Shown: one piece after another, positions 4,628 through 62,123 of the stretch
Layout: the number at the start of each line of letters is the position of its first letter
Numbering within the stretch: position 1 is the first letter of the stretch
Virus record (IMG/VR): IMGVR_UViG_3300037264_008235
Location: 1-64,000 of that record
DNA length: 64,000 bases
Source: a virus
Strand: one strand, 5' to 3'
Notes under the pieces: model-generated
Told to the model about the DNA's origin: nothing
The model's database searches: none
What the model saw: only the letters and a program-made list of their open reading frames with translations
Made by a program: the position numbers and the translations under genes

Positions 4628-6583
4628 TCAAGAGTAGAGAGAGGACTGGGGCACGGCCCAGAGGATCGGCTGCACGCCGGTCGTGGCCTCCGCCTCCCAG
4701 GCGACCTCCTGGCTGGTGATGTCTCCCGGCCCGCCGGCGAAGGGCGCCGTCGTGACCTGGAAGGACGGGACGAAGAGCTCGATCGCGACGCTGTAGATCT
4801 GCGTGGACGCCGCCGTCCACGCGTAGAGCGTCCCGTTACCCGCGCCGCGCCCCTGGATCGTGAGGGCGACCGAGAGCGTGGTGACCGTGATCCCGCTGCC
4901 GTCCGCGGTGACCGCGACCGCGCTCCCGCCAACGGTCAGCGAGAGCTGGAAGTCATTCGCCGTGGCCGCGATCACGTAGTAGGTCGTGTTCGCGGTGAAC
5001 CCGGCCGGGGGCGCCGCGAGGACCACGGCCTGCCCGTTCACCAGCCCGTGAGCCGTCTTCGTGAACAGGTCTCCCACGTCCGTGGCGCTCACGGCCGTCA
5101 GGACGAGCTCGGCCGCGATCGCGGCGACGGTGATGACCTCCGCCTTCGCCGGCGTCCCGGACGCGCGGAGGAGGAGCGTGTCCCCGGCCATCATCCCGCC
5201 CGCCCCGCCGACGGACTGGACCCAGGTCTGGGTCCCGGTCCCGTCGCTGGTGATGTCGATCGCGGCGCCGCCCTTGGTCAGCGCGAGCTTGAACTTGTCG
5301 ACCGTCCGGTCGCGAACGTAGTAGGTCAGACCCGCGATCAGCGGCGCGGGGAGCGTCGTCGTGGTCTGGACGGTGACGGCCTGGTCGTTCTGCAGCCCGT
5401 GGCTGGTCGACGTCAGGAAGTCGTCCGTCGCGAACGCCGTGGTGAACACGCCCGACCCGGCGGTCTGCCGGAGCGGGAGGAACATCGTCGTCGCGCCGGC
5501 GGCGAGGTTGTTCACGGTGCTCAGAAGCCGGCTGGTCCGGTGGAACCCGCAGACGCGGAGCCGGCCAACCGTCTGGTTCCGGATCATCGAGAGGTAGCGG
5601 GTGTTCGTCGGGTTGATCCGGAACGTCCCGCTGACCCGCTGGATCCCCGCGGCGAGACCGGTGACCAGCGACTTCATGCGGCCGGCGTCGGTCGGGCTCC
5701 CGTCGACGTCGACCTCCCGGCCCTGCTGCTGGAGCGCCTGGTCGACCACGATCGTGAACGCGAGCGCGGAGCTCACGAGCGAGTCCGCCGGCGCCGGCGC
5801 CGTGTCGTCCCGCGCCTCGAAATAGGCGGTCAGGAACGTGAACCCCTTCGCGGCCGGGAGGACCGGAGCAGCCGGCGTCGCGGGGTTCGCGACCTCGCTG
5901 TCCTTCTGCGCGCGCCAGTCGACCGCGCAGAGGATGTCCGGGTTCCCGCCCCCCCGCTCCGCGCTGAAGGTTACCCGGCCCGCCTTCGCTCCCACGTTGA
6001 GGAGCGTCGTGTCCGTTCCCATCCCCGAGAAGTGCTTGATCGCGAACGAGTCCGTCTCGGAGTTGGTCCGGCGGAGGATCGCGTCGATCACCGGCGCCGA
6101 GTTGTCCGGGTAGAGGATCACCCGGATCGTCCCCTGTACGTTGTACTCGGTCGCGAGCCGCTCCGGCGCCTCGAGGCTCCCGACCTGGCGAACGACCTCG
6201 GTGAACGACGGCTGAGGGTAGAGCCCGAACCCGTCGTTCTCGACGCAGAGGACGATCGGGTCCGGCGTGACCGTGTTGGGCGGCGTCCCGACCGACGCCA
6301 TCGCGATCGCGGTCCCGCCCTTCGTCGCCGCGACCGTGAACGTGTCCGCGTCCACGACGGAGACGACGTAGTAGCGGGTCCCGCCCGTCAGGGCCGCGGG
6401 GAGCCCGCCGCCGGCGGTGAAGATCACGCCGCGCCCGGCCCGGAGCCCGTGCCCGACGACGACCACGTTCGGGCTGCCGCCGCCCGTGAACGTGACCGAG
6501 ATCGGGTCGAAACCGCGCCCGTCCCCGTAGAGCGACTCCTTCGTCCCGCCCATGGTGGTGAAACGTCCGAAACCGGAAGGCAT
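4628..6583 (-). CDS. major tail tube protein with three inserted modules
   Basis: 651 residues. The ATG follows an AGGAGG ribosome site. The core, about residues 125-350 (EYNVQGTIRVILYPDNSAP, then SGTFRINPTNTRYLSM), resembles siphophage tail tube proteins, and the gene sits directly before the tail chaperones. It is far longer than a usual tail tube protein. Three copies of a module with signature HGL..G..V...LP..L..GT.YYV....FT.A.T.GG lie at about residues 28-100, 384-455 and 500-570. The same module occurs in four other virion genes of this phage. The modules may decorate the tail surface. Confidence 0.75.
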   Translation of the reverse strand: MPSGFGRFTTMGGTKESLYGDGRGFDPISVTFTGGGSPNVVVVGHGLRAGRGVIFTAGGGLPAALTGGTRYYVVSVVDADTFTVAATKGGTAIAMASVGTPPNTVTPDPIVLCVENDGFGLYPQPSFTEVVRQVGSLEAPERLATEYNVQGTIRVILYPDNSAPVIDAILRRTNSETDSFAIKHFSGMGTDTTLLNVGAKAGRVTFSAERGGGNPDILCAVDWRAQKDSEVANPATPAAPVLPAAKGFTFLTAYFEARDDTAPAPADSLVSSALAFTIVVDQALQQQGREVDVDGSPTDAGRMKSLVTGLAAGIQRVSGTFRINPTNTRYLSMIRNQTVGRLRVCGFHRTSRLLSTVNNLAAGATTMFLPLRQTAGSGVFTTAFATDDFLTSTSHGLQNDQAVTVQTTTTLPAPLIAGLTYYVRDRTVDKFKLALTKGGAAIDITSDGTGTQTWVQSVGGAGGMMAGDTLLLRASGTPAKAEVITVAAIAAELVLTAVSATDVGDLFTKTAHGLVNGQAVVLAAPPAGFTANTTYYVIAATANDFQLSLTVGGSAVAVTADGSGITVTTLSVALTIQGRGAGNGTLYAWTAASTQIYSVAIELFVPSFQVTTAPFAGGPGDITSQEVAWEAEATTGVQPILWAVPQSSLYS

Positions 6584-22957: not shown

Positions 22958-23860
22958 TCACGTCTTCTCCCTCCTGTGCTCCTCGACCAGGGCGCGGATC
23001 GCGGGGTGCTTCGGCGTCTTCCGCTCGACCAGCTCCGCGCCGTACTCGTCGACCGCCGGCAGCTTCGAGAGGTCGACGCCCGGCTTCAGGATCAGCGGCG
23101 TCCGGAACCCCTTCCACGCGTCGCGAATCACGTGCTGCGGACGCCCGTAGCGGCGGGACGTCTTCACGACTCCCGGCCAGGCGCGCTCGAGGCTCCGGGC
23201 CATCTTCAGGCGCCCGTCCCCGGAGTAGAGCGCCTCCGTGTTCCCTCCCTTCACGGTCATAGTCGTCATCTTCCAGGCGAGGAACACGTTGACTAGGATC
23301 GTGCACCACCCGCCGGCGAGGACCTGGAGGCAGAGGTCCGCATCGTCGTTGTACTCGAACCGCCAGCGGAACGGAGCCGCGTGGTTGACGAGCGTACAAG
23401 AGTAGACGTGAGCGTTCACGAAGAAGGGCGGGACCCTCGACCGGTTCGGCGCGAACATGTAGTAGTTCAGGCCCGAGATCCCGACGTTCTCGTAGCGGTC
23501 CGTGAGGTCCTCCGCCACGCGGAGCGCGAGCCCGGCCTCACACGGGACCTTCCTCGCCTTCCAGCGCCGCCAGAAACCGGAGATGTTGTCGTCGAGCTGC
23601 CAGTGCTTCGCGGCGCCGGACGCTTCCGCGTGGTCACGGATCCAGTTCCGCGCGCGGAGGAGCCCGTCCTTCGCTCCCGGATCGTTGTCCCGAGGGAGGC
23701 AGACCACGCGCTCCGCCCCGAACCTGCGCGCGTAGTCTTCCCGCTCGCGCGGCTGGACGACGAGCAGGAAAGGCACCGCATCCCTGAGGAGCGCCTTGGC
23801 CGTCAAGCAGACGTCCGCTCTCCCCGCGGACGGGATGTAGACCGGGTAGCGCGGGTTCAC
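22958..23860 (-). CDS. GREB/TAGT-like glycosyltransferase (DNA base modification candidate)
   Basis: 300 residues from GTG at 23860 (GTGA overlap with the preceding gene). Residues 5-14 (YPVYIPSAGR), KHWQLDDNISGFWRRW (85-100), GISGLNYYMFAP, PFFVNAHVYSC, WRFEYNDDADLCLQVL (166-181) and GGNTEALYSGDGRL match the GREB/TAGT family, relatives of the base J glucosyltransferase. LDD (89-91) and NDDAD (171-175) are likely metal/sugar-nucleotide sites. Known relatives in phages sit with enzymes that modify cytosine or thymine in DNA. Here the partner is the methyltransferase-ParB fusion next door. The sugar and the base are not known. Confidence 0.75.
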   Translation of the reverse strand: MNPRYPVYIPSAGRADVCLTAKALLRDAVPFLLVVQPREREDYARRFGAERVVCLPRDNDPGAKDGLLRARNWIRDHAEASGAAKHWQLDDNISGFWRRWKARKVPCEAGLALRVAEDLTDRYENVGISGLNYYMFAPNRSRVPPFFVNAHVYSCTLVNHAAPFRWRFEYNDDADLCLQVLAGGWCTILVNVFLAWKMTTMTVKGGNTEALYSGDGRLKMARSLERAWPGVVKTSRRYGRPQHVIRDAWKGFRTPLILKPGVDLSKLPAVDEYGAELVERKTPKHPAIRALVEEHRREKT

Positions 23861-25392
23861 GTCTTCGGCGCCTCCTCGAACCGGAGACCCGCCACGTCCT
23901 CCCGCTCGGAGAGCGGCCAGCGGACCGACCACGTCTTCTTCTTCCGGTAGATATTGGTCGCACCGATCTTCTCGACGAACGCCGCGCGCCCGGCCTCGTC
24001 CTCGAAGAGGACCACGAGCTTGAGCTGGTCCTCCCCCTCCTCGTAGCCGGGAAGCCCGACCCAGGCGGCGGCGGCGTCGAGGTCCGGCAGCTCGTCCGCT
24101 CCGCGCGTCACCATCGCGAGCGCGGCGAGTTGCGCCTCGTCGAAGCCGGTCCCCTCGAGGCCGGCCGGCAGCTTGGCGAGCTCGCGGAGCATCTCGGTCA
24201 GCGTCCGGTCGTCGATCTCCGCCAGACGCGCGACCTCATTGTCGCCGGCGAGGATCCGGAGCGCGCGCGAGTCGTCCGGCTCGAGGTCGAGGCGGACGGC
24301 GGGCCCGCGCTCGATCCCCATCGCGAGGGCCGCCTTCACGACCCCGTGACCGGCGAGGACCGTCCCGTCCCGGGCGATCACCACCGGGCGGTAGAACCCG
24401 TTCGCCCGGAGGCTCGCCTGCAGGTGGGCGATCTGGTCCGGCGGATGCTCCCGGTAGTTTCGAGGGTGCGGGCGGAGAGAGGAGAGCGGGACGACCTCGA
24501 TCGGGAGGTCGGCGCGCGGGGCGGACGGGAGCGGGGCGGGTTCGGTCAAGGACGTCTCCTGTCTTGCGGGCCTCTCGGCCTCTCCGGCGAGGACCCAGAC
24601 GCCGGGTCGGTTGTTCCAGAAACCGGAGCTCACGCTCCGGTAGCCCTGGGCCCTCATCTCCTTGGCGAACACGCGGCCGAAAGAGCCGCCGTCGACCGGC
24701 CCGTCGTCGGACTGGTACCAGCGGAAGTGCCCGATCGACCGAGCTCCGAACGCGTTGGCGACCAGCCAGGCTCTCGGCCGGACGTTCCGGAGTATCTCCC
24801 TCAGGTGGTCGATCGGTCTCTCGAAGTGCTCGAAGTACTCGCTCGCGAGAGCGAGGTCGCACTCCCAGCCGCGGAGCGCCGCCGCGCTCTCCTCGAGGCG
24901 GAACCCGGTCCTGCGCGCGAGGACGGAGGCGACCCTCCACTGGAGGGACTCGGGCAGTTGCGTCCCGACGACGTCGGAGCCCGGGAACATCTCGGCCAGC
25001 GCCGCGGTCGTGACGCCGATCCCGCAGCCGAGGTCGAGGACGCCGCGCCCGGGCCCGACCTCGAACAGGCGCTTCTTCCTCACCTCGCGCAGGTACCGCC
25101 TCGAGTAGACGGCCCAGCACGTCCAGGCCTCGGAAACGTACTCGGCGTCGTCGTAGACGCCGAAGTCCGGCAGCTCCGCGTCGAGCGACCGGTACCAGCG
25201 TTCCGTGAGCGGGTTCGGGTAGCCGTCGGAAGCCCTGGAACCGAAGTGGGAGACGCAGTCGCGGGAGAGGCGGACGATCTCCTCCGCTCCCTCGATCCCG
25301 GCCTCGGTCAGCAGGGAGAGGAAGAATCGGAACCCGGCGTCGCCGGCCATGTCCAGGAACGAGCCGGTCAACGGTCCTCCTCCTGGTGTCAT
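23857..25392 (-). CDS. SAM methyltransferase fused to a ParB-like domain
   Basis: 511 residues, ATG overlapping the nuclease-gene stop (ATGA). Residues 118-126 (VLDLGCGIG) are the SAM-binding motif of a class I methyltransferase, continuing to about residue 265 with SEYFEHFERPIDHLREIL. A Pro-rich linker leads to a ParB/Srx-like domain at 297-410: VPLSSLRPHPRNYREHPPDQ, SLRANGFYRPVVIARDGTVL, AGHGVVKAALAMG. The ParB part has the R-P-H-P-N-Y and GH turn of phage ParB-like enzymes rather than a partition protein, and there is no ParA. With the adjacent glycosyltransferase it suggests DNA modification. Confidence 0.72.
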   Translation of the reverse strand: MTPGGGPLTGSFLDMAGDAGFRFFLSLLTEAGIEGAEEIVRLSRDCVSHFGSRASDGYPNPLTERWYRSLDAELPDFGVYDDAEYVSEAWTCWAVYSRRYLREVRKKRLFEVGPGRGVLDLGCGIGVTTAALAEMFPGSDVVGTQLPESLQWRVASVLARRTGFRLEESAAALRGWECDLALASEYFEHFERPIDHLREILRNVRPRAWLVANAFGARSIGHFRWYQSDDGPVDGGSFGRVFAKEMRAQGYRSVSSGFWNNRPGVWVLAGEAERPARQETSLTEPAPLPSAPRADLPIEVVPLSSLRPHPRNYREHPPDQIAHLQASLRANGFYRPVVIARDGTVLAGHGVVKAALAMGIERGPAVRLDLEPDDSRALRILAGDNEVARLAEIDDRTLTEMLRELAKLPAGLEGTGFDEAQLAALAMVTRGADELPDLDAAAAWVGLPGYEEGEDQLKLVVLFEDEAGRAAFVEKIGATNIYRKKKTWSVRWPLSEREDVAGLRFEEAPKT

Positions 25393-25838
25393 CCGGGTGT
25401 CCTCCAGGCGCCTCCAGGTGCCAGGAACGGGAGCGGTCCGCCCTCGCGGTAGGCGCGGGCGGCGCGGAAGCGGGTCACCACGACCCGGAAAGCGGCCGGG
25501 AACGCGTCCAGAGAGAGCTCGACCCCCTCCGGGTCCTCCAGGCGGACCAAGTCCCTGAGGACGAACGCGCAGAGGCCTTGCGCGCGGAGCCGGCGGAGGC
25601 GCTCGACCTGGGCGGGGCGGAGCGGCCCGTCCCCGGACTTGAGCTCCGGGAGGAGGACGGCGCCGCCGGGCCCGAAGACGATCAGGTCCGGCCAGCCCGG
25701 AGGGGTCATGGCGTCCTGGCGCTCGACGCGGGCGAGCCAGCCGCGGGAGCGGAGGGCGGCGACCAGGGAGGCGCGGTCGTCATTCTCACGGCGGGCGCGG
25801 GAGCCTTTGGACGGGCGGCTTGGGGCGCGGTTGGTCAC
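25389..25838 (-). CDS. VRR-NUC-type nuclease
   Basis: 149 residues, GTG preceded by GGAGGTTCC. Asp51 in GWPDLIVFG and Glu65/Lys67 in LLPELKSGDG followed by PAQVERLRRLRAQG form the PD-(D/E)xK core of VRR-NUC endonucleases, single-domain nucleases common in phages and thought to act on branched DNA. It lies next to the presumed origin, so a replication or recombination role fits. Confidence 0.82.
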   Translation of the reverse strand: MTNRAPSRPSKGSRARRENDDRASLVAALRSRGWLARVERQDAMTPPGWPDLIVFGPGGAVLLPELKSGDGPLRPAQVERLRRLRAQGLCAFVLRDLVRLEDPEGVELSLDAFPAAFRVVVTRFRAARAYREGGPLPFLAPGGAWRTPG

Positions 25839-26016
25839 TGGAACCTCCGTAGACAGATCACGCGCGACCCCAAGTGTCCGGACGCGCGTAAGTCATCAAG
25901 TGAGCGGGCCTCCTGAAACGCCGTAAGTCTTCCGGAGTAGGGGGGAGGGTTCGGAAAACAGACCCTCCCCCCACTTAAGCTGTTTACTGGTAGCCAGTTG
26001 CCGAAATGTGCCTTGA

Positions 26017-26038
26017 GGGGGGAGGGTTTGGGGAGGGT
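26017..26038 (+). repeat. G-tract cluster, G-quadruplex-prone
   Basis: Four runs of at least three G, separated by one to three bases (G6, A, G3, T3, G4, A, G3), formed by one iteron plus a partial copy. It could fold into a G-quadruplex on the plus strand at the edge of the AT-rich core. Confidence 0.5.
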
Positions 26039-26223
26039 TAACCGGGTATATATGTAAAACTAAGTCTGTATAATTGTACGTTATACTGGCGTACAAAACA
26101 GAGATCCCAGGATTAACCCCCCAGAAACCCTCCCCCCTGAGGTCCGTTTCGCGCAAAGCGTTATCTGGTAACGGCCGCAGAGGGGGGAGGGTTGAAAAAA
26201 CAAACCCTCCCCCCCTATCGAGG

Positions 26224-26243
26224 TTTTCCACACGTTTTCCACA
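26224..26243 (+). promoter_or_regulatory. two DnaA-box-like repeats
   Basis: TTTTCCACA at 26224-26232 and 26235-26243, in direct orientation 11 nt apart. Each differs from the E. coli consensus TTATCCACA at one position. Host DnaA may open the adjacent origin. Confidence 0.55.
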
Positions 26244-26254
26244 AGCGGGTGGGG

Positions 26255-29200
26255 TCATTCCTCACCCGGCTCTCGGTTACGTTCGCCGGGACCCTCCGAC
26301 CAGTGAGCGTCTTGCGTCGCGAGCGCGATACCGCGGTACTCGATCTTCCGGCCCGAGTGGCGGGAGGATTTCCGCTTCTCGAGCCCGCGCTCGGAGAGGC
26401 GGAGGCTGAACGCGGTCTGGGTCAGCGGGTCCTCTCCGCGCTTGAGAGCCCAGTTCCTGTAGTCGCCGTACAGGTCTGAGGCGAAGGCGGCGGCGTGGGG
26501 GGAGAGGGCGCAGCGGTCGGTGATCCACTCCCCGACGACGTCCTGTTCCGAGCGGTACTCGGCGGTGGCCTCCCGGACGGCCTCCGGATCCCGGAGCCCG
26601 CCGGCGAACCAGGCGACCGCGCCGCGGACGATCCAGGCGAGGATGCCGGGCGCCTCGGCGCGGAGCTTCTCGGGCAGCTCCGGGTCGCGCTCGGCCTCCG
26701 GGACGACGACGGAGAACGGGATCAGGCGGATGCGGCGCCAGATCCCGACGTCGGTGCCGCGGACGTCCGGTTTATGGTTGGCGGCGAGCCAGACCTTGTG
26801 GGTCGGCTCGAAGGACCAGAAGTCCTCCCGCATCCGCCTCGCCTTGATCAGGTCCCCGCCGGTGATCTCCTTGACGATGGCCTCGGCCATCGCGCGGCCC
26901 TCCCCGACCTCGATGGTGGAGACGAGGCGCTTGCCGTGCAGGTCGGCGAGCTCGGTCGGGTGGTGCTCGCCGCGCTTGGCCAGGAGGAGTTCCGGGGGGG
27001 CCTTGTCGGCGTAGTCGGTTCCGAGGACGTGCTGGAGCGCGCCGAGCCAGGTGGAGTTGTGGGTCGGGACCATTCCCTCCCCGACGAGGTAGAGGTGGGA
27101 AGGGGAGTCGACCTCGACGCAGCGGACGGGGACGGGAGCGACGGGGTAACAGGCGACGACTGACCGGAAGAGCGGGAGCGAGCGCGGGCGGCAGGCGCCG
27201 AGTTTGCGGGGCGAGGAGAAGACGTCCAGTCCGGGGACGGTCGTGAAGATCACGCGGAACTTCGGGCCGTGGTCGACGCCGTTCAGGCGCGCACGGCCTT
27301 CGGAGAGCGTCGGGCGGAGGCCGAGGGAGCGGGCCAGCTCGAGGACGCCGTTGGCCAGCGCGCGGGAGGTCGAGCAGTACTCGCATTGCGCCTGCCGCTT
27401 GAGCGCGTGGCCGTCGGAGTCCATCAGTCCCTGAAGGAGCGCGAGTCGCTGTCGGGCGGAGGCGCGCAGGTAGGCGGGCGGGACGTGTTTGTTGTCGAGG
27501 ACTTCCGCGCGGGCGAGCTTGGCGCGCGCGGAACCTCCGCGCATTCCGCAGCCGTAGCGGCGTTCCGTGGTGCGGAACGTAAGTGTCCGGCCTCGGCCCT
27601 TCACTCTCCCGAATGAGCAGAAGTACCCGGCGTTGGAGAACCGGCCGGCGACGTGGCCGGAATCGTCCTCGTGAGTAGCGATCTGCGGTCCTCCGGTCGA
27701 GCCGTTGCCGAGCCAGTAGCCGAGGACGTACGGGTCGAGCGGGAGGTCCGCGTCCGGCAGCGTTAGGGCGCCGGCCATCGCGACGCGCCAGCGGTACTCG
27801 GTCCCGCCGCGGCAGGCTCCGGTTGTGGGCCGGACGCGGACGACGACGTTGTCGGCGATCTCTCGAGTCATCCGGGTCGATTCCCGGCCGACGTAGTCGG
27901 AGACGCGCCACTCGTGCTCGGCGTCGGCGACGACGGAAGTACCGTCGGAGAATCGGACGCGGAAGCAGGGTCGGTCCGTCCACGTATCGGAGAGCGCCAG
28001 GACTCGGCAAGGCACGCCGCGTTCATCGAATACGAGATCTCCTGGCCGGAGCGCGCCCTGCGTCGTCCACCCCGTAGGAGTCGGAATGTAAGTGTTCAAG
28101 CAGCACGCTTTTCCGTTGGCGCCCGTCCCGTAGCAGAAGAAGAGGGCGTGGTCGCGGACGGAGCCGGTGGCGGAGTACCCGGCGGCGCGCTGTAGGTACT
28201 CGATCAGGAGGCGGTTCGGTTCCCAGGAGGTCCCCTCGGTCGTGACCAGCTCGCGGCCGAAGATCCGGTCGAGGAACCGTTCCCAGATCGGCGCGGGCGC
28301 GGCGGGGTCGAAGGGAGTCGGGCAGAGCTTGGTGATCATGTCCGCCTTGGCGTGCGGGCGGAGGGCGCCGGAGCGGAGGTCGACGACGCCGTTGGGGCAG
28401 CAGAGGGCCCAGGGGTCGCGGTCGAGGAGGTCGGGGAGGACGGCGACGCGGGAGCGGGCCATCTCGGCGGCGTTGCTCGATCCGGCGCGGGAGAGGGACT
28501 TGACCGCCCAGCGGGCGAGGGCCTTGGCCTCGGCGGGAGTCGCGGCGTCCAGGGCCTCACGGAAGATGCCGCGGACGGAGCGGAGGGCGCGGCGCTCGAT
28601 CTCCCCGGTCCGGTCGGGGCACCAGCGGGCGCCGTCCCAGGCGAGCCACTTGTTCCACGGGTAGCAGAAGCGGAGGTCCTCTCCGTGGTCGCGCACGAGG
28701 CGGGCGGCGTTGCCGGAGTCGGAGAACCGCTCGCTGTCCGGGCCGGGGAGGGGGGCGGGGGTCGCGGCCGTCGCCGGGGCGGTCCCGTTCCCGCCGGCGT
28801 CGCCGGAGCCGGCGGTCGCGTGCGGGCGCGGAGCGCCGAACCCCTCTCCGGCGAGGGCGCGGGCGGCGGCGCGGAAGTCGCCGCCGTGCTCGAGCAGGGA
28901 GAGGACCTGGAACGGGCTGTAGGCGTGGCGCGGCTCGAACGGTTTCCAGGAGGGGGAGAAGACGTAGAGGAGCGGGACGCCGTCGATCTCCCGGACGGTG
29001 GCGTCGATGCCGCGGGTGCGGGCGCCCGGGCGGCGCCAGTGCTCGATCCCGCCGGCGGCGGAGCGGGCGAGGACGGCGCCGCGGCGCTCGAGGAGGGCGC
29101 GGACGTTCCCGCGGCGGTTGTAGTCGTCCCCGGGGCGGTCGGTCCGGTCCGAGCGGGCGGAGCCGGACTCGACCTGCCGCTCGCTGGAGCCGGCCCGGCC

Positions 29201-29818
29201 GGCGACGCCGGCGGCGACGAGGCGGGCGGTCCGGGTGGGTTCGGGGAGGAGGACGCGGAACGCGCCGGTCCGGGCGACTCCCTGGACGGTGGCGCGGGGC
29301 GAGTAGAAGAGGCGGGCGCGGTCGAGGACGGGGGTCTGGTCGACGGAGAGGCCGCCGGAGTCGCCGAAGGGGAGGAGCTCGTGCACGGCGGTCTCTACGA
29401 GGAGCGCGGCGCCGCGGGCGGCGTCGTCCTGGAGGTCGCCGTCGGGCTCGGGCTCGTCGAGGACGAAGACGGCGCGGAGCCCGCGCGGGGTGCGGTGGGA
29501 GAGGTTGAGGAGCGGGGCCAGGAGGCGCTCGGCGGCGGCGGCGACGTTCTCCGGGACGGCGGAGTGGACCCACTCGGACTCGCCGGCGGGGGGCGGGGTC
29601 AGGTAGTCGAGGTCGACCACGACGGCGGAGGAGGAGCGCCAGGCGTCGCGGGAGCGGCGGTCGCCCTCGAACTCGAAGGGGGCCCACCAGGCCTCGTCGC
29701 CGGCGTGGGCGCCGACGAGGGAGGCGAGCGAGCGGACGGGGTCGGCGGGGTCGAGCGGGACGCGGCGGCCGTCGGGGCGGCGGAGGCCGAGGCCGAGGGT
29801 GACCGCGCGGGGTTTCAA
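26255..29818 (-). CDS. primase/SF3 helicase interrupted by an intein
   Basis: 1187-residue precursor from a TTG start (TTGA overlap, GAGGAGGAA ribosome site); about 836 residues after splicing. The N-terminal 200 residues look like an archaeo-eukaryotic primase (VVVDLDYLTPP, HRTPRGLRAVFVLDE). A D5-type domain follows (FCYPWNKWLAWDGARWCPD), then an SF3 helicase with the P-loop GTGANGK-ST, Walker B LVSTIEVGEG and motif C VWLAANHKPDVRGTDVGIWR. A 351-residue intein separates Lys and Ser of the P-loop, so splicing is required for activity. Function: primer synthesis and strand unwinding at the adjacent origin. Confidence 0.88.
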   Translation of the reverse strand: MKPRAVTLGLGLRRPDGRRVPLDPADPVRSLASLVGAHAGDEAWWAPFEFEGDRRSRDAWRSSSAVVVDLDYLTPPPAGESEWVHSAVPENVAAAAERLLAPLLNLSHRTPRGLRAVFVLDEPEPDGDLQDDAARGAALLVETAVHELLPFGDSGGLSVDQTPVLDRARLFYSPRATVQGVARTGAFRVLLPEPTRTARLVAAGVAGRAGSSERQVESGSARSDRTDRPGDDYNRRGNVRALLERRGAVLARSAAGGIEHWRRPGARTRGIDATVREIDGVPLLYVFSPSWKPFEPRHAYSPFQVLSLLEHGGDFRAAARALAGEGFGAPRPHATAGSGDAGGNGTAPATAATPAPLPGPDSERFSDSGNAARLVRDHGEDLRFCYPWNKWLAWDGARWCPDRTGEIERRALRSVRGIFREALDAATPAEAKALARWAVKSLSRAGSSNAAEMARSRVAVLPDLLDRDPWALCCPNGVVDLRSGALRPHAKADMITKLCPTPFDPAAPAPIWERFLDRIFGRELVTTEGTSWEPNRLLIEYLQRAAGYSATGSVRDHALFFCYGTGANGKACCLNTYIPTPTGWTTQGALRPGDLVFDERGVPCRVLALSDTWTDRPCFRVRFSDGTSVVADAEHEWRVSDYVGRESTRMTREIADNVVVRVRPTTGACRGGTEYRWRVAMAGALTLPDADLPLDPYVLGYWLGNGSTGGPQIATHEDDSGHVAGRFSNAGYFCSFGRVKGRGRTLTFRTTERRYGCGMRGGSARAKLARAEVLDNKHVPPAYLRASARQRLALLQGLMDSDGHALKRQAQCEYCSTSRALANGVLELARSLGLRPTLSEGRARLNGVDHGPKFRVIFTTVPGLDVFSSPRKLGACRPRSLPLFRSVVACYPVAPVPVRCVEVDSPSHLYLVGEGMVPTHNSTWLGALQHVLGTDYADKAPPELLLAKRGEHHPTELADLHGKRLVSTIEVGEGRAMAEAIVKEITGGDLIKARRMREDFWSFEPTHKVWLAANHKPDVRGTDVGIWRRIRLIPFSVVVPEAERDPELPEKLRAEAPGILAWIVRGAVAWFAGGLRDPEAVREATAEYRSEQDVVGEWITDRCALSPHAAAFASDLYGDYRNWALKRGEDPLTQTAFSLRLSERGLEKRKSSRHSGRKIEYRGIALATQDAHWSEGPGERNREPGEE
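27056..28108 (-). mobile_element. class 3-type intein with LAGLIDADG homing endonuclease
   Basis: Precursor residues 571-921. It begins with Ala, not Cys or Ser (ACCLNTYIPTPTGW), and ends in VPTHN before a Ser. Block B is VVADAEHEWRV, block F is VPVRCVEVDSPSHLYLVG and block G is MVPTHN. The Trp of HEW, Cys of RCVEV and Thr of PTHN form the WCT triad that defines class 3 inteins, which splice through the block F cysteine. The homing part has two LAGLIDADG helices, VLGYWLGNGSTGGP and ALLQGLMDSDGHA, so it may still spread. Confidence 0.82.
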
Positions 29819-30189
29819 TCTTCCTCCTCGTCGTCGCGGAAGTCGGTCTCGCCGCGCTTCTCGATGATCTCTACGCACTTGGCGCGCTGCTTCTCGGAGA
29901 GGGAGCGCCCGGAGCCGACCTGGCGGGTGATCGAGTCGGCGAACTCGGATTCCCAGTCGGAGAGGCCGCCGTAGTCGGCGAGCTGGTCGGAGAGGTCGCG
30001 GTCGGGCCAGCCGGCGGGCCCGGCTGGCGCGCCGGGGCGCGGGCCGGCGCTGGCGAGGTTGTCCGGGTCCTGGCGGGCCCAGGAGAGGAAGCGGCCGCAG
30101 GCGCGGCACTCCTCGCGGAGGTGGGCCGTCCCGTCCGCGAAGGCTTCCCAGCGGACGCGCGTCCGCTCGTGAGCGCAAGATCCCGACAA
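29815..30189 (-). CDS. zinc-binding hypothetical protein before the primase
   Basis: About 124 residues from a TTG at 30189; the open frame runs further upstream but across the operator at 30290. Cysteines and histidines in SGSCAHERTRVRW and REECRACGRFLSW suggest a small zinc site. The rest is acidic and helical (YGGLSDWESEFADSITRQV, SEKQRAKCVEIIEKRGETDF). Directly upstream of and coupled to the primase, so it may be a replication accessory factor. Start uncertain. Confidence 0.55.
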   Translation of the reverse strand: MSGSCAHERTRVRWEAFADGTAHLREECRACGRFLSWARQDPDNLASAGPRPGAPAGPAGWPDRDLSDQLADYGGLSDWESEFADSITRQVGSGRSLSEKQRAKCVEIIEKRGETDFRDDEEED

Positions 30190-30289
30190 GCTGACCGCCC
30201 TCGACCGCCGCCGCCGTTTCGATCTGCCGGGTCGCCCCGACCCCGCCGCCGCGCCTCCTCCGGACCGCCCGGACCGGGGGGAGCGCCGC

Positions 30290-30306
30290 CGAATATAACA
30301 CCTGCG
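30290..30306 (+). promoter_or_regulatory. operator/promoter-like site B before the primase operon
   Basis: CGAATATAACACCTGCG, a 17-nt exact copy of site A (22919-22935). It lies upstream of the primase operon, in the same orientation relative to the minus-strand gene as site A. Two identical copies 7 kb apart in GC-rich DNA are unlikely by chance. Confidence 0.6.
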
Positions 30307-30353
30307 CGGGAGAGAAGTGGTAACCGGAGGCGGGCGGGGGCGCGCGCGGAGCG

Positions 30354-30593
30354 TCACGGCGACTCCGTCCGCGGAGTGGCGACGGGTGCCTCATCGCCGT
30401 AGGGATACGTCTGGTAGCGGGAGAACTCGTAGACGTCCTCGTTCCCGCGCCGGCGCCGCTCGTAGAAGTGCCAGACGTCCGGCCCGTAGCAGGAGGCGGG
30501 GAAGACGACGAAGGGCGTGGCCGGACGGCCGGCCCGGAACTCGATCCAGCAGCCGTCGTGCGGCCCGCCGAAGACGCGCCGGGAGCGGGTCAC
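30354..30593 (-). CDS. hypothetical protein, 79 residues (GGPxDG family)
   Basis: GTG at 30593, GTGA overlap with the exonuclease gene. Features GGPHDGCWIEFRAGRPA, then ASCYGPDVWHFYERRRRGNE. A second phage gene at 42162-42392 shares the GGPxDG start and the C-terminal Tyr/Arg-rich strand. The two may be distant paralogues. Function unknown. Confidence 0.6.
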   Translation of the reverse strand: MTRSRRVFGGPHDGCWIEFRAGRPATPFVVFPASCYGPDVWHFYERRRRGNEDVYEFSRYQTYPYGDEAPVATPRTESP

Positions 30594-57453: not shown

Positions 57454-57843
57454 TCAGAAGTCCCCGCCGTGGACGAAGACGTTGAAGGTCTCCGCGTTGT
57501 GGGTCGAAGCCCGGAGCGAGTAGCCAGTCGGGAGTACCAGCGGCTCGGTCGGGACGAACTCGGTTGAGAAGGCAGCGACCGTCGTCGAGGGCGTGGTCGC
57601 CGCGACGAGCAGTTCTTTCCAGAGCCGCGCGTTGGTGCCGTTGTGGATGAAGAGCCGGACGACCCCGTCCGTCGTCGTCCCGGTCGCCTGGACGCGGACG
57701 TACTCGATCCGCCCGCCGTCGGAGCCCGGCGTGTAGATGGTCGCGATCGTGCCGGTCCCGTCCCGGTCCGGATTCGCGACTGAGACCTGGCCGACCGCGG
57801 CCACGGGCGTCAGGGTGAAGATCGGGGTCGTGTTAGGGGGCAT
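57454..57843 (-). CDS. fibre-region protein, 129 residues
   Basis: ATG at 57843 overlapping the previous stop as TGATG. All-beta (IFTLTPVAAVGQVSVANPDR, RIEYVRVQATGTTTDGVVRL), a type often found in fibre-tip assemblies. Role not assigned. Confidence 0.55.
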   Translation of the reverse strand: MPPNTTPIFTLTPVAAVGQVSVANPDRDGTGTIATIYTPGSDGGRIEYVRVQATGTTTDGVVRLFIHNGTNARLWKELLVAATTPSTTVAAFSTEFVPTEPLVLPTGYSLRASTHNAETFNVFVHGGDF

Positions 57844-60800
57844 CAGACGAACCTTTCCATGGAGAGGAGCCTCGTGGTCGGGGTGAGCGCGGCGACGCGC
57901 CCGAGGAGGGACGCGGGATTGCTCGCGGCGATCTCCTCCCGAAGCATGGTCTGCGTCCGGTCCGGGTCGAGCGTGATGAGCGGGAAGTCCGGATGGAGCC
58001 CCTCGCCCGAGTCGATCGCGGGGTAGAGGCCCACCGCGTTGGCGATCATCCAACCGACGACCGGGTGGAAGAAGACCGCGCCGAGGTTCCCGGTGACCAG
58101 GTTCTCGGGGTAGCCGACGCCGTTCCCGAGGCTCGCGCCGTTGATGCTGACCGTGTTCGCTGGGATGCCCAGGGGCGCGTAGGCGTCCGACGGCGTGGGC
58201 CAGTCGAGCGGGTCGATCGGCCCCCCGTGGATGCCCGGGTCCGCGAGGTACTGGAGCCAGGTCAGGTGCGTCGCGGGGTTGAAGCTGGGCGGCCAGAGGC
58301 GGTTGCCGGGGCCGCGGGTGAGGTCCCCGATGATCGCCCGGGGCCAATAGATGCACCCGGTAAGCTCGGTGTAGGACCCCTGCGCGAGAGGATCAGTGTT
58401 CCCGCTGATGTTGTCCGGGAAGACGGGTTGCTGCGGGTGCCGCCCGGTGAAGTTGGAGCCGTCACCGCTCAGGGGTGTCGCGGTGCCGTCCCTGGTCGTC
58501 GAGACCTTGAACTCCGTCGAGGAAAACCCGTCGGCGATGACGTAGTACTTCGCCCCGCTGGTGATCCCGCCAGGGATGGAACCGCTTCCGTCCGTGAATC
58601 GGACCGGCTCGCCGACGACGAGACCGTGCGCCCCGCCTCCGTCCTTGGTGAAAACCTCGGTGTCTGCCTCAGCGTCCAGCGTGATCGTGCCAGTTGCTGG
58701 CCGAATCGTGTTCGACTCCGGGTCGAGTTCGCCGCGGAGCTTGACCGCCTGCTTCTTGTTCCGCAGGAACTCAGCGACGTAGGGGTCCGGTGCGGGGCGT
58801 TCCTCGTCCCAGCGGACGATCGCCATGATCGAAGGGTGGCCCTGGATGTCGTAGGTGACAGCCGACACCCGAGCATCCACCCCCAGGACCACGTCTTCGA
58901 GCGCCTCGACGTCGATGATCGGCACGTCGGCGGTCGGCCCAGATCCCTCGTTGAGATTACTCAGAGCCGACTCGGCGGAGTCGGCAGGGGCGTCCGGACC
59001 CTTCTCCGCGTCCTGCTTGCCTTGGACCGCTTCGAGCTTGCTCCAGAGCGCTGCGAGGCCGGAGCCGATCGCCGATAGACCGTTCTGGACCTTGTTGTTG
59101 AGCGCGTCGATTTGCGCCTGCAACCCGCTTGGATCGAACTGGGTGGCGTTCTGGCTGCGTCCACCGAACGCCCCTCCACCATTCGGCCCGTTGAGCCCCC
59201 CGCCGAGCGCCCCGCCGCCGCCGACCGCGCCGCCGACCGCGCGCGCGCCCGCGAGGCACCGCTCGCGGTCGTTCATCTTCTTCACGACGCGCTCGAGCGC
59301 GGCCGCCTTCTGCCGCTGCCGGACGTCCGCCACCGCGCGGTCGAACGCGCCGCCCGTCCCGCTCCGGTCCGTGGACAGAGTCACGGACGTCTGGTTGGCG
59401 GCGAAGTCGTAGACCTCCCGCGTGTGCTGGGCGCGCTCGACGATCACCTTCCCGCCCGAGTGGAGGTCCACGCACGCCTGGACGCACGGCTCGGCCGCGT
59501 AGGCGGGCGCCGGCAACGGCGGCGGCGCGGTCAGGAAGACCAGCCAGTCGAAGCGGAGCCCGCGCAGGACCAGCTCGCCCGCGTAGCGGACGTCCTTGTA
59601 CTGCTCGAGGATCTCCTTCGCGTGGTTGCGCGCGGACGCCACGAACTCCGGGTGCTTGAATCCCTGCGGGTTCGCCGGAGTGGCCGGATCGCCCCGCTCC
59701 ATCGACTCCTCGTTGATCGCGTCCAGGTAGACGAGGAGCTCGCGCTCGATCCCGAGCCGGCTGTAGGCGGTCGAGGTCGCCTGGCCCGCGTACCCGAGGT
59801 GGACCTCCGCGGAGACGGAGACGGACGGGCTGGAGACGGTCAGGTTGACCGGGTTCCCGCCGCGCGCGAGCGCGATCTTGAACGCGGTCGCCGTGAAGCC
59901 GGAGCTCGCGACGTAGTAGCGGCTGCCCAGCGTCACGCCACCTGGGACGCTCCCGTAGAGCCGGACCGGCTGGCCCGCGAACAGTCCGTGGGCGCCGCCC
60001 CCGACCTTGACGAACGTGTCGGTCGACGCCAGCGCCGCGGCCGAGAACTCGACGTTCTCCGGGAAGCGGACGGAGAGCGTCCCGCCCGTCTTCGTGCAGA
60101 AGCGGAGCTCCTGGACGGGGTTCACGATCGCGGAGCCCGGCGTCGCGCAGCTCGCCCCGACGTAGGCGGGCGAGAGCAGCGAGACCAGGTCGAGCGTGAC
60201 GTTCTGGCCCCCGACGATCCGCGTCTCCCGCACGACGTCCCAGTCGGCCGGGATCATCTGCGCGGTCGGCGAGCCGCTCGGCCCGAGGAGCTGCTGGACG
60301 AGGTAGGCCGCGTCGCAGCACGAGTCGAAGACGTGGGAGAGGGAGACCGGCGGGTACTTCCACGGCGCCGCCGGGGAGACCGGCGGCAGCGACGTGTCGA
60401 CCACGAGGTAGGTCCGGAACACGTCCACCGCGGAGCCCCCGGCCGCGGGCGGCCGCGCGGTCACGGTGATCCGGTGAAGATTCCGGACCTGGAGCGCGGC
60501 CCAGCCGGTCGGCCCGCCGCCGTTGATGACGGCCGGCGGCGCCGGCGTGCCCGCCGCCAGGTTGAGCGTGTCCCGGAAGCTGGTCGCGACGTCCGCCTCC
60601 CAGACGGTCGGCGGGCCGACGATCGGGGGGGTCTTGAAGACGTTGAACTCGACCTTCACGCGCCCGCCGCTCCACCAGAGCGGCTGCCAGGCGAGGGAGC
60701 CGATCTGGATGAACGGCTGGTTCGGCCCGCCGCCGTTGACCGAAGTCCCCGTCCAGGTCGAGACCGGCGCCTGCGTGCAGGACCAGTACTGCTCGAGGTT

Positions 60801-62123
60801 CCGGTCCCAGGCGCGGACGATCGCGTAGCGGCGGTCGGCGAAGGCCGGGTCGTTCGGGTGCGGCGGGACGTAGGTCGAGATCTCCGCGACGAAGCGGGCG
60901 ACCGCCGGCTCCGTCTCGTCCCGCCGCCCGACCAGCCGGCAGGCGGTGTAGAGCTGGCCGGAGGACTCCTTGAACCCGTGCCGGAGGACCTGCTGCTGGT
61001 CGTCCACGTCCACGCGGAAGCGGTTCGGGAACCCGGACGCGAGCCCGTTCTCGCTGAGCTGGTCGAACGGGTCGATCTGGACCCGCATCTCGTCCACGAA
61101 CGGGGCGTCGAACGTGTGCTGCCAGAGCTGCATCGTCGGGCTCACGCTCTTCACGAGCACGACGACCGCTTCCTTGAACGGCCCGTCGAAGACGAGCTTG
61201 CCCGGCCGCGGCGCGCGGCCCGCGTACCAGTCGGTCGAGATCCGGAAGCTGGCCGGGAACAGGTCGTGCGTCCCGCCGGCCACGTAGAACGGGCCGAGGA
61301 TCGGCGTCAGCTCGTAGAGGTGGCTGAGCTCGAGGTCCTCCCCGATCGCGACCACGTCCGCGCGGTGGTCCGCGAGCGCCCGCTCGTCGAAGTCCGGGTC
61401 GTCCGGGTCCGGGTTGTAGACGCGCCGCGGGAACAGGCGGTTCGGGTCCGGGTTCGGCTCGAGGCGCGGGTTGTTCGTCACCTGGAAGTTGAGGTCGTCG
61501 AACAGGCTCCGGCAGAGGTACTCGACCGCCCTCCCGTCCGAGGTCCGGTTGATCTCCGCGATCCGGCCGGAGAACAGCGGCTGCCGGAAGTCGCTGGTAA
61601 CGGTGAACCCGGCGGTCCCGTCCGAGGTCAGGTCGAGGACGGCGCCGCCGCGCGTCTCCGAGATCTGGAACGTGGTCGCGGTCGCGGCGACGACGTAGTA
61701 GGCGCGGAGCGGCTCGATCCCGCCCGGGAGCGCGCCGGCCGCGGCGCGGAACACGACCGGCTCGCCGACGATGAACGCGTGGGCGACGGCCGGCGGGACG
61801 AGCGTCGTCGTGACGAGGTTCCCCGTCGCCGAGCCGGAACATGAGTAGGACGGCGGAAGCTCGCCCCGCGCGTGGAGCACGCGCGAGTACTCGGAATGGT
61901 AGTACGCGACGCGGCGCCCGTAGGCGAAGCTGGCCCGGTCGAACGGGACGTGCTCCCGGAAGACGAGGAGGTCCCCCTCATTCCGGTTCTTCTCGCACCG
62001 GACCATCGAGATCTCGCCGTTGAGCCCGTCGTCCCCGAAGAGGTCGACGACCCGGTCGGCGTCCGGGCCGGCCGGGGAGGAGATCGACGGCGTGACCCCG
62101 ACGCGCAGCCGGTGACCGCTCAC
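57843..62123 (-). CDS. large tail-tip / baseplate protein with three modules
   Basis: 1426 residues. The N-terminal 90 (RVGVTPSISSPAGPDADRVV, YGRRVAYYHSEYSRVLHARG) start the tip domain. HGL/YYV modules lie near residues 95-177, 700-785 and 1145-1235. Other parts: EYLCRSLFDDLNFQVTNNPR, LVRDETEPAVARF-type sheet, a Gly-rich linker before a coiled coil (QIDALNNKVQNGLSAIGSGL). Length and place after tape measure suggest a tip attachment protein (gpJ-type hub). No clear Pfam hit by eye. Confidence 0.65.
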   Translation of the reverse strand: MSGHRLRVGVTPSISSPAGPDADRVVDLFGDDGLNGEISMVRCEKNRNEGDLLVFREHVPFDRASFAYGRRVAYYHSEYSRVLHARGELPPSYSCSGSATGNLVTTTLVPPAVAHAFIVGEPVVFRAAAGALPGGIEPLRAYYVVAATATTFQISETRGGAVLDLTSDGTAGFTVTSDFRQPLFSGRIAEINRTSDGRAVEYLCRSLFDDLNFQVTNNPRLEPNPDPNRLFPRRVYNPDPDDPDFDERALADHRADVVAIGEDLELSHLYELTPILGPFYVAGGTHDLFPASFRISTDWYAGRAPRPGKLVFDGPFKEAVVVLVKSVSPTMQLWQHTFDAPFVDEMRVQIDPFDQLSENGLASGFPNRFRVDVDDQQQVLRHGFKESSGQLYTACRLVGRRDETEPAVARFVAEISTYVPPHPNDPAFADRRYAIVRAWDRNLEQYWSCTQAPVSTWTGTSVNGGGPNQPFIQIGSLAWQPLWWSGGRVKVEFNVFKTPPIVGPPTVWEADVATSFRDTLNLAAGTPAPPAVINGGGPTGWAALQVRNLHRITVTARPPAAGGSAVDVFRTYLVVDTSLPPVSPAAPWKYPPVSLSHVFDSCCDAAYLVQQLLGPSGSPTAQMIPADWDVVRETRIVGGQNVTLDLVSLLSPAYVGASCATPGSAIVNPVQELRFCTKTGGTLSVRFPENVEFSAAALASTDTFVKVGGGAHGLFAGQPVRLYGSVPGGVTLGSRYYVASSGFTATAFKIALARGGNPVNLTVSSPSVSVSAEVHLGYAGQATSTAYSRLGIERELLVYLDAINEESMERGDPATPANPQGFKHPEFVASARNHAKEILEQYKDVRYAGELVLRGLRFDWLVFLTAPPPLPAPAYAAEPCVQACVDLHSGGKVIVERAQHTREVYDFAANQTSVTLSTDRSGTGGAFDRAVADVRQRQKAAALERVVKKMNDRERCLAGARAVGGAVGGGGALGGGLNGPNGGGAFGGRSQNATQFDPSGLQAQIDALNNKVQNGLSAIGSGLAALWSKLEAVQGKQDAEKGPDAPADSAESALSNLNEGSGPTADVPIIDVEALEDVVLGVDARVSAVTYDIQGHPSIMAIVRWDEERPAPDPYVAEFLRNKKQAVKLRGELDPESNTIRPATGTITLDAEADTEVFTKDGGGAHGLVVGEPVRFTDGSGSIPGGITSGAKYYVIADGFSSTEFKVSTTRDGTATPLSGDGSNFTGRHPQQPVFPDNISGNTDPLAQGSYTELTGCIYWPRAIIGDLTRGPGNRLWPPSFNPATHLTWLQYLADPGIHGGPIDPLDWPTPSDAYAPLGIPANTVSINGASLGNGVGYPENLVTGNLGAVFFHPVVGWMIANAVGLYPAIDSGEGLHPDFPLITLDPDRTQTMLREEIAASNPASLLGRVAALTPTTRLLSMERFV

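Follow-up and report, generated by a model that had tools for sequence, protein, structure and literature searches.

The window is a stretch of 64,000 nucleotides out of the 65,465 bases of IMG/VR virus record IMGVR_UViG_3300037264_008235, which, judged from its portal and terminase-like genes, is that of a tailed phage. The GC content of the genome lies mostly between 68 and 77% per kilobase. An intergenic island of 55% GC, which we propose to be an origin of replication, fills the 416 bp that separate the stop codon of a primase/helicase gene from the start of the gene that follows (positions 25,839–26,254). The primase/helicase reading frame, as listed, runs on the minus strand (26,255–30,394) and encodes 1379 residues, with matches to DNA primase PHROGs and the only D5_N match of the record (E = 1.2e-32). 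The island is located directly downstream of this gene for a D5_N/SF3 helicase. An earlier reading made from the sequence only had named the primase/helicase as the nearest gene, and the two indeed adjoin, with the stop codon of the gene bounding the island. On the other side there is a small nuclease gene, also on the minus strand (25,389–25,838), which matches endonuclease and Holliday junction resolvase PHROGs. The gene order primase, gap, VRR-NUC gene is the same in Lactobacillus phage JNU_P9. At 22,958–25,392, a gene for a glycosyltransferase of the TET-associated type is found beside a gene with a methyltransferase and a ParB-like domain, and from these domain matches the region is likely a DNA base hypermodification cluster. 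Two further genes of the window (4,628–6,583 and 57,843–62,123) have tail-fibre PHROGs 4711, 7765 and 9370 in common, possibly reflecting a duplicated fibre domain.

An open frame of 120 amino acids crosses most of the island on the minus strand (25,896–26,258). The GC content of its three codon positions is flat (0.58/0.50/0.53), compared with 0.71/0.49/0.93 for the C terminus of the primase, and the frame therefore looks non-coding. The possibility that the island is protein-coding was rejected for this lack of codon bias. A gene translated across the island would, according to the sequence-only reading, speak against an origin, and the crossing frame carries no coding signal. A search of Rfam with the island gave only a chance-level match, to mir-629, far under the gathering score.

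The island contains six exact copies of the 11-mer GGGGGGAGGGT, on the plus strand at 25,940, 26,017 and 26,182 and on the minus strand at 25,962, 26,127 and 26,204, spanning 25,940–26,214; no further exact copy is present in the window. The spacings between the centres of the copies are 22, 55, 110, 55 and 22 bp, and the three nested pairs are all centred exactly on position 26,077.0. When six sites were placed at random in 400 bp, the same spacing and centring occurred in 13 of 200,000 trials. Of the 199 pairs about 26,077, 101 show ungapped dyad symmetry, whereas the scanned centres have a mean of 50 (S.D. 6.4). The copies and their order had been described before as hairpin, single, core, inverted single and hairpin. 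This order stands, but the singles are really tandem pairs, as each half contains an extra degenerate iteron that is shifted inwards by 11 bp from the single copy. The left inner unit consists of an exact iteron (26,017–26,027, plus strand; match to GGGGGGAGGGT) and a degenerate one, GGAGGGT, 11 bp from the first (26,032–26,038, plus strand). The right inner unit consists of a degenerate iteron with one mismatch (26,116–26,122, minus strand) and an exact one that matches GGGGGGAGGGT (26,127–26,137, minus strand). The outer units are iteron pairs arranged head to head. The first (25,940–25,972) has arms at 25,940–25,950 (plus) and 25,962–25,972 (minus) and a loop with AAAAC, and the second (26,182–26,214) has arms at 26,182–26,192 (plus) and 26,204–26,214 (minus) and an A-tract loop. 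In both hairpins, the starts of the 11-mers are 22 bp apart. Folding of the island as single-stranded DNA gives a z score of -9.4 relative to 100 shuffles.

Stable hairpins in an island between two genes on the same strand could serve to control transcription, as terminators after the primase gene, with the core as promoter or operator of the downstream operon. No sigma-70-like promoter was found in the island, neither outer hairpin was called as a terminator, and a single weak site resembling a terminator is no more than expected from shuffles (0.8). A terminator, moreover, needs neither two-fold symmetry nor tandem pairs. Transcription control is decidedly unlikely as the explanation of the island, and it may be additional to a role as an origin.

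The AT-rich core (26,042–26,111) has a GC content of 39% and holds the 70-mer of lowest GC content in the record. This 70-mer starts at 26,047, inside the dyad, and has a GC fraction of 0.31, the next lowest being 0.49; as a record minimum, it bears out the previously noted contrast between the AT-rich core and the GC-rich genome. The global minimum of the cumulative GC skew, at 24,385, falls 1.7 kb to the left of the dyad. On the top strand, the skew at third positions is mostly negative between 15 and 23 kb, and the nuclease and primase genes have values of +0.35 to +0.39. This skew flips sign within a run of same-strand genes near the island, and the nuclease gene left of the island keeps the sign of the right side. 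The skew is consistent with an origin in the vicinity but does not place it to the base pair. With regard to the argument that a skew minimum elsewhere would contradict an origin, the minimum is close to the dyad, but it does not coincide with it.

An intein (27,056–28,108, minus strand; inferred borders), identified by LAGLIDADG/Hom_end matches, interrupts the primase/helicase gene at the lysine of the helicase Walker A motif. It splits this motif as GANGK/ST, and its sequence kin are inteins in many viral contigs as well as terminase inteins. The initial scan with the primase caught mostly the intein (residues about 760–1120). At the other end of the gene (29,800–30,394), the first ~190 residues of the 1379-residue frame are rich in arginine and do not look coding, and the primase probably begins further into the frame than listed. 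For the helicase part that follows the intein, an alignment with 68 relatives was made and a structure was predicted with AlphaFold (mean pLDDT 90.5). Structure comparison with the model reveals similarity to the PrimPol of African swine fever virus, with Z up to 15.1, and to poxvirus D5/E5 helicases. The SaPI5 primase-helicase (Protein Data Bank code 7ola) is among the nearest solved structures (Z of 12.2, 3.7 Å, 212 residues). Residues 174–247 of the model match the winged helix of RFX (code 1dp7) with a Z of 9.5 and an r.m.s.d. of 2.4 Å over 74 residues. This predicted C-terminal winged-helix domain (26,315–26,536, minus strand) is our candidate for the reader of the iterons. No Pfam match to the Toprim family was found in the 1379-residue frame, and the DNA polymerase families A, B and C-alpha gave no match in the record, which may be incomplete.

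Searches for close relatives of the phage with the small nuclease and with the N-terminal part of the primase gave none, and the portal gave seven distant loci. The DNA of the island has no match in the phage collection. Viral contigs with two inverted copies of GGGGGAGGGT were found at 37 loci, none of which has the arrangement. The alignment of the helicase C-terminal part, by comparison, yielded 251 relatives in viral contigs. The best 80 of these 251 were taken, and two were dropped for lack of a stop codon or of sufficient downstream DNA, leaving 78 loci. The geometry of inverted tandem pairs, as prompted by phage Reptar3000 and by listings of the loci, was defined as two 7-mers 8–13 bp apart, a gap of 50–130 bp and two reverse-complement copies 8–13 bp apart, with at most one mismatch overall, within the first 460 nt after the helicase stop codon. 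This geometry is present downstream of the helicase in 35 of the 78 loci, compared with 3 of 880 control windows taken from elsewhere in the same loci and none of 780 shuffles of the downstream windows, although the definition was shaped on the loci that it scored and some loci are near-duplicates, so that 35 overstates the number of independent cases. The remaining 43 loci lack the motif by this definition. A cruder count of islands in which an 8-mer occurs at least four times gives 34 of 78 against 31 of 880. The contigs with the motif have a GC content of 58% or more in 33 cases and below that in two. In the record studied here, the single scanned window with the geometry is the island.

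The iterons themselves vary widely among the relatives and include GTGACGC, AGGGACA, AGTACCC and CCGGTCAC, besides others. Their similarity correlates with the identity of the winged helix (rho 0.30; 0 of 1000 permutations) and equally with that of the ATPase (rho 0.31). Co-evolution of the iteron specifically with the winged helix is not supported, as it is inseparable from general relatedness. Spacings were surveyed in 41 islands (34 viral loci, six named phages and the window). The usual distance between neighbouring iterons of the same orientation is 9 bp (110 pairs), compared with 11 bp in the window. Among convergent neighbours, 22 bp is the commonest spacing (10 pairs) and no other spacing occurs more than five times; an inverted neighbour pair at 17–26 bp is found in 16 of the 41 islands. 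The convergent 22-bp iterons often enclose an A- or T-tract, of which GTAGTGAC-CTTTTTTTCGGAA-CTCACTAC of locus L093 is an example. The hairpins of the window were scored as 18 bp in this survey since the 7-mer used is off-centre. From their sequence, they resemble the recurrent head-to-head pair of 22 bp. Alternating purine-pyrimidine runs (CGCGCACGCACACGCG) were observed in the cores of some sister islands (downstream of the helicase in L101, L114, L119 and L130, and at L157:2300-2370), where they could favour Z-DNA; such runs are absent from the core of the window.

A short distance beyond the dyad, two exact copies of the DnaA-box-like sequence TTTTCCACA lie 11 bp apart on the plus strand (26,224–26,243, starting at 26,224 and 26,235). 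They are the only matches to TTNTCCACA in the 65,465-base record. An origin driven by the host, in which DnaA binds these boxes and opens the core with the G-rich repeats as accessories, would account for this, and one sister island (L101) likewise has two such boxes 11 bp apart, at offsets 301 and 312 counted from 10 nt before the stop. But there are only two boxes, which lie beside an outer hairpin and are 113 bp or more away from the core, and 33 of the 35 sister islands have none. Matches to TTNTCCACA occur in 2 of 35 islands with the motif, 3 of 43 islands without it and 4 of 399 control windows. We consider a DnaA-driven origin unlikely, and the helicase's own predicted winged helix is a likelier binder than host DnaA. 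The claim of two DnaA-like boxes thus holds for this record, where they are unique, and is not supported as a feature of the family. Much the same applies to the proposal that one flank can form a G-quadruplex. A single such motif is present, on the plus strand at 26,017, and accompanies the G-rich iteron of this phage; only 5 of the 35 sister islands contain one.

The comparison also bears on two other explanations. One gene, two genes away from the island (23,857–25,392), has a ParB-like domain by PHROGs, and the island could accordingly be the partition site, or centromere, of a plasmid-like prophage, bound by a ParB-type protein. This gene also has a methyltransferase domain and adjoins the gene for the base glycosyltransferase, and base modification is for that reason its likelier function. 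The geometry, furthermore, recurs next to helicase genes in phage stretches without an annotated ParB. A partition site is very improbable on these grounds. The other explanation is a repeat element with no function in replication, either a mobile hairpin element or an assembly artefact; the island is highly repetitive and one of a kind in its record. Three nested pairs with one centre, and the same geometry in other sequences beside homologous genes, make this scarcely credible.

Seventeen named phages were examined, namely three of the best matches and 14 that we chose ourselves among 60 listed of 945 records. The motif is present downstream in six of them: Peas, LastHope, Reptar3000, AcaML1, Angelica and JNU_P9. 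An annotated DNA polymerase I is found nearby in 6 of the 11 phages that lack the motif (DrManhattan, Nesbitt, TG1, BAjuniper, JasmineDragon and BabyGotBac), compared with none of the six that have it. This suggests, post hoc and for 17 chosen phages, that the phages bearing the motif are those relying on the host replisome. In bacterial genomes, 400 relatives were found, and the best 80 of the 400, mostly from Streptomyces and its kin, were used. The downstream position is not repeated there (4 of 78, compared with 53 of 885 other windows). Of the 80 loci, 50 have the motif upstream of the helicase frame and 12 downstream of it, and 18 lack it. Read after the fact, the link between motif and helicase gene holds in the bacterial genomes, but the side does not. 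Loci L185–L257 (e.g. L188:200-760) are integrated elements of the Streptomyces type with a dyad of the AAGCGAC/GTCGCTT type upstream of the primase-helicase gene.

Taken together, the geometry, the adjacency to an initiator-type helicase, the low-GC core and the nearby turn in skew support the earlier reading of the island as an iteron origin, which we uphold above all because the same inner geometry adjoins related helicases elsewhere. We estimate a probability of about 0.83 that the island is a replication origin read by the phage's own self-loading primase-helicase through its C-terminal winged helix. In the proposed mechanism, the D5_N/SF3 primase-helicase would recognize the iterons with this domain, and the inverted tandem pairs would position two helicase assemblies, presumably hexamers, in head-to-head orientation with the core between them. 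ATP hydrolysis would then melt the AT-rich core, the primase part would prime and the host polymerase would extend in both directions, so that replication would start at the island. The outer head-to-head pairs with their A-tract loops may provide extra binding sites or bend the DNA.

Several known systems resemble this arrangement. According to one source, the rep gene of SaPIs is followed directly by the origin, which is made of iterons and read by a C-terminal domain, and both SaPI5 Rep and SCC Cch2 are D5-type helicases; the D5-type proteins of SaPI and SCC use this domain to bind iterons that adjoin the downstream end of their own gene (PMC7581432). The Rep/PriRep proteins of SaPI5 and SaPIbov1 are alike to ours in that a self-loading helicase, of the D5_N/Primase_C-term type in SaPI5, has an iteron origin directly downstream (PMC7581432, in excerpt), and the SaPI5 fold matches our model. 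Here, in contrast to SaPI, the system belongs to a tailed phage genome, with a G6AG3T iteron, an exact dyad with outer head-to-head pairs, and an intein; the iteron layout of SaPI is outside this comparison. The putative origin of SCCmec Cch2, also a D5-type helicase, has direct repeats, which are required for binding, and a hairpin-forming inverted repeat just downstream; its three 5-nt iterons are direct repeats only, as far as the excerpt goes (PMC7581432), whereas here inverted tandem pairs flank a core. In plasmid pRN1, the origin is a stem-loop located 3' of the primase-helicase gene, and the same was proposed for Bordetella phage BIP-1; the likeness is an origin-like element 3' of a gene for an AEP primase, SF3 helicase and winged helix (PMC4234260, in part). 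The pRN1 origin is described there as one long stem-loop of about 100 nt without iterons (PMC4234260, in part), and the spaced iterons of the island are not of this type. The P4 alpha protein likewise combines the binding of origin repeats, through a winged helix, with unwinding and priming, but its primase is of the TOPRIM type by the same source (PMC4234260); the lack of a Toprim match in our frame indicates that the island is not of the P4 type. The features of the SaPI/SCC type that are found here are an adjacent D5_N/SF3 gene, a downstream origin, several iterons and a predicted C-terminal DNA-binding domain. Very probably, the island is a real origin that belongs to a known kind, and its G-rich iteron is unusual.

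The kind of origin is already known from SaPI and SCC, and the rule for its layout was not found in print. We found no description of the layout in the literature on phage origins, iterons and primases, actinobacteriophage iterons, G-quadruplex phage origins and Streptomyces replication loci, a survey that covered few subscription papers and neither SaPI origin paper. For mycobacterial prophages, RepA and RNA origins are treated in the available part of a further source, which calls mycobacteriophage DNA replication poorly characterised for lytic growth (PMC7157519).

With a confidence little better than even, we suggest that phages and integrated elements with D5-type primase-helicases share an origin grammar, in which a core of 50–130 bp is flanked by inverted tandem pairs of iterons, usually at a distance of 9 bp, and accompanied by a 22-bp head-to-head pair with an A-tract loop. 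The whole would be linked to the helicase gene on either side, and the iteron sequence would be free to change between phages. The wider interest is in this shared geometry with changing iterons, which can be tested in laboratory phages, as the rule yields candidate origins in the Mycobacterium smegmatis phages Angelica, LastHope and Reptar3000 and in Arthrobacter phage Peas. If true, it would offer small cassettes of initiator plus origin for use in high-GC bacteria, together with a means of finding origins in metagenomic phages. If the grammar is indeed shared, origins, and perhaps incompatibility between phages, would be readable from sequence.
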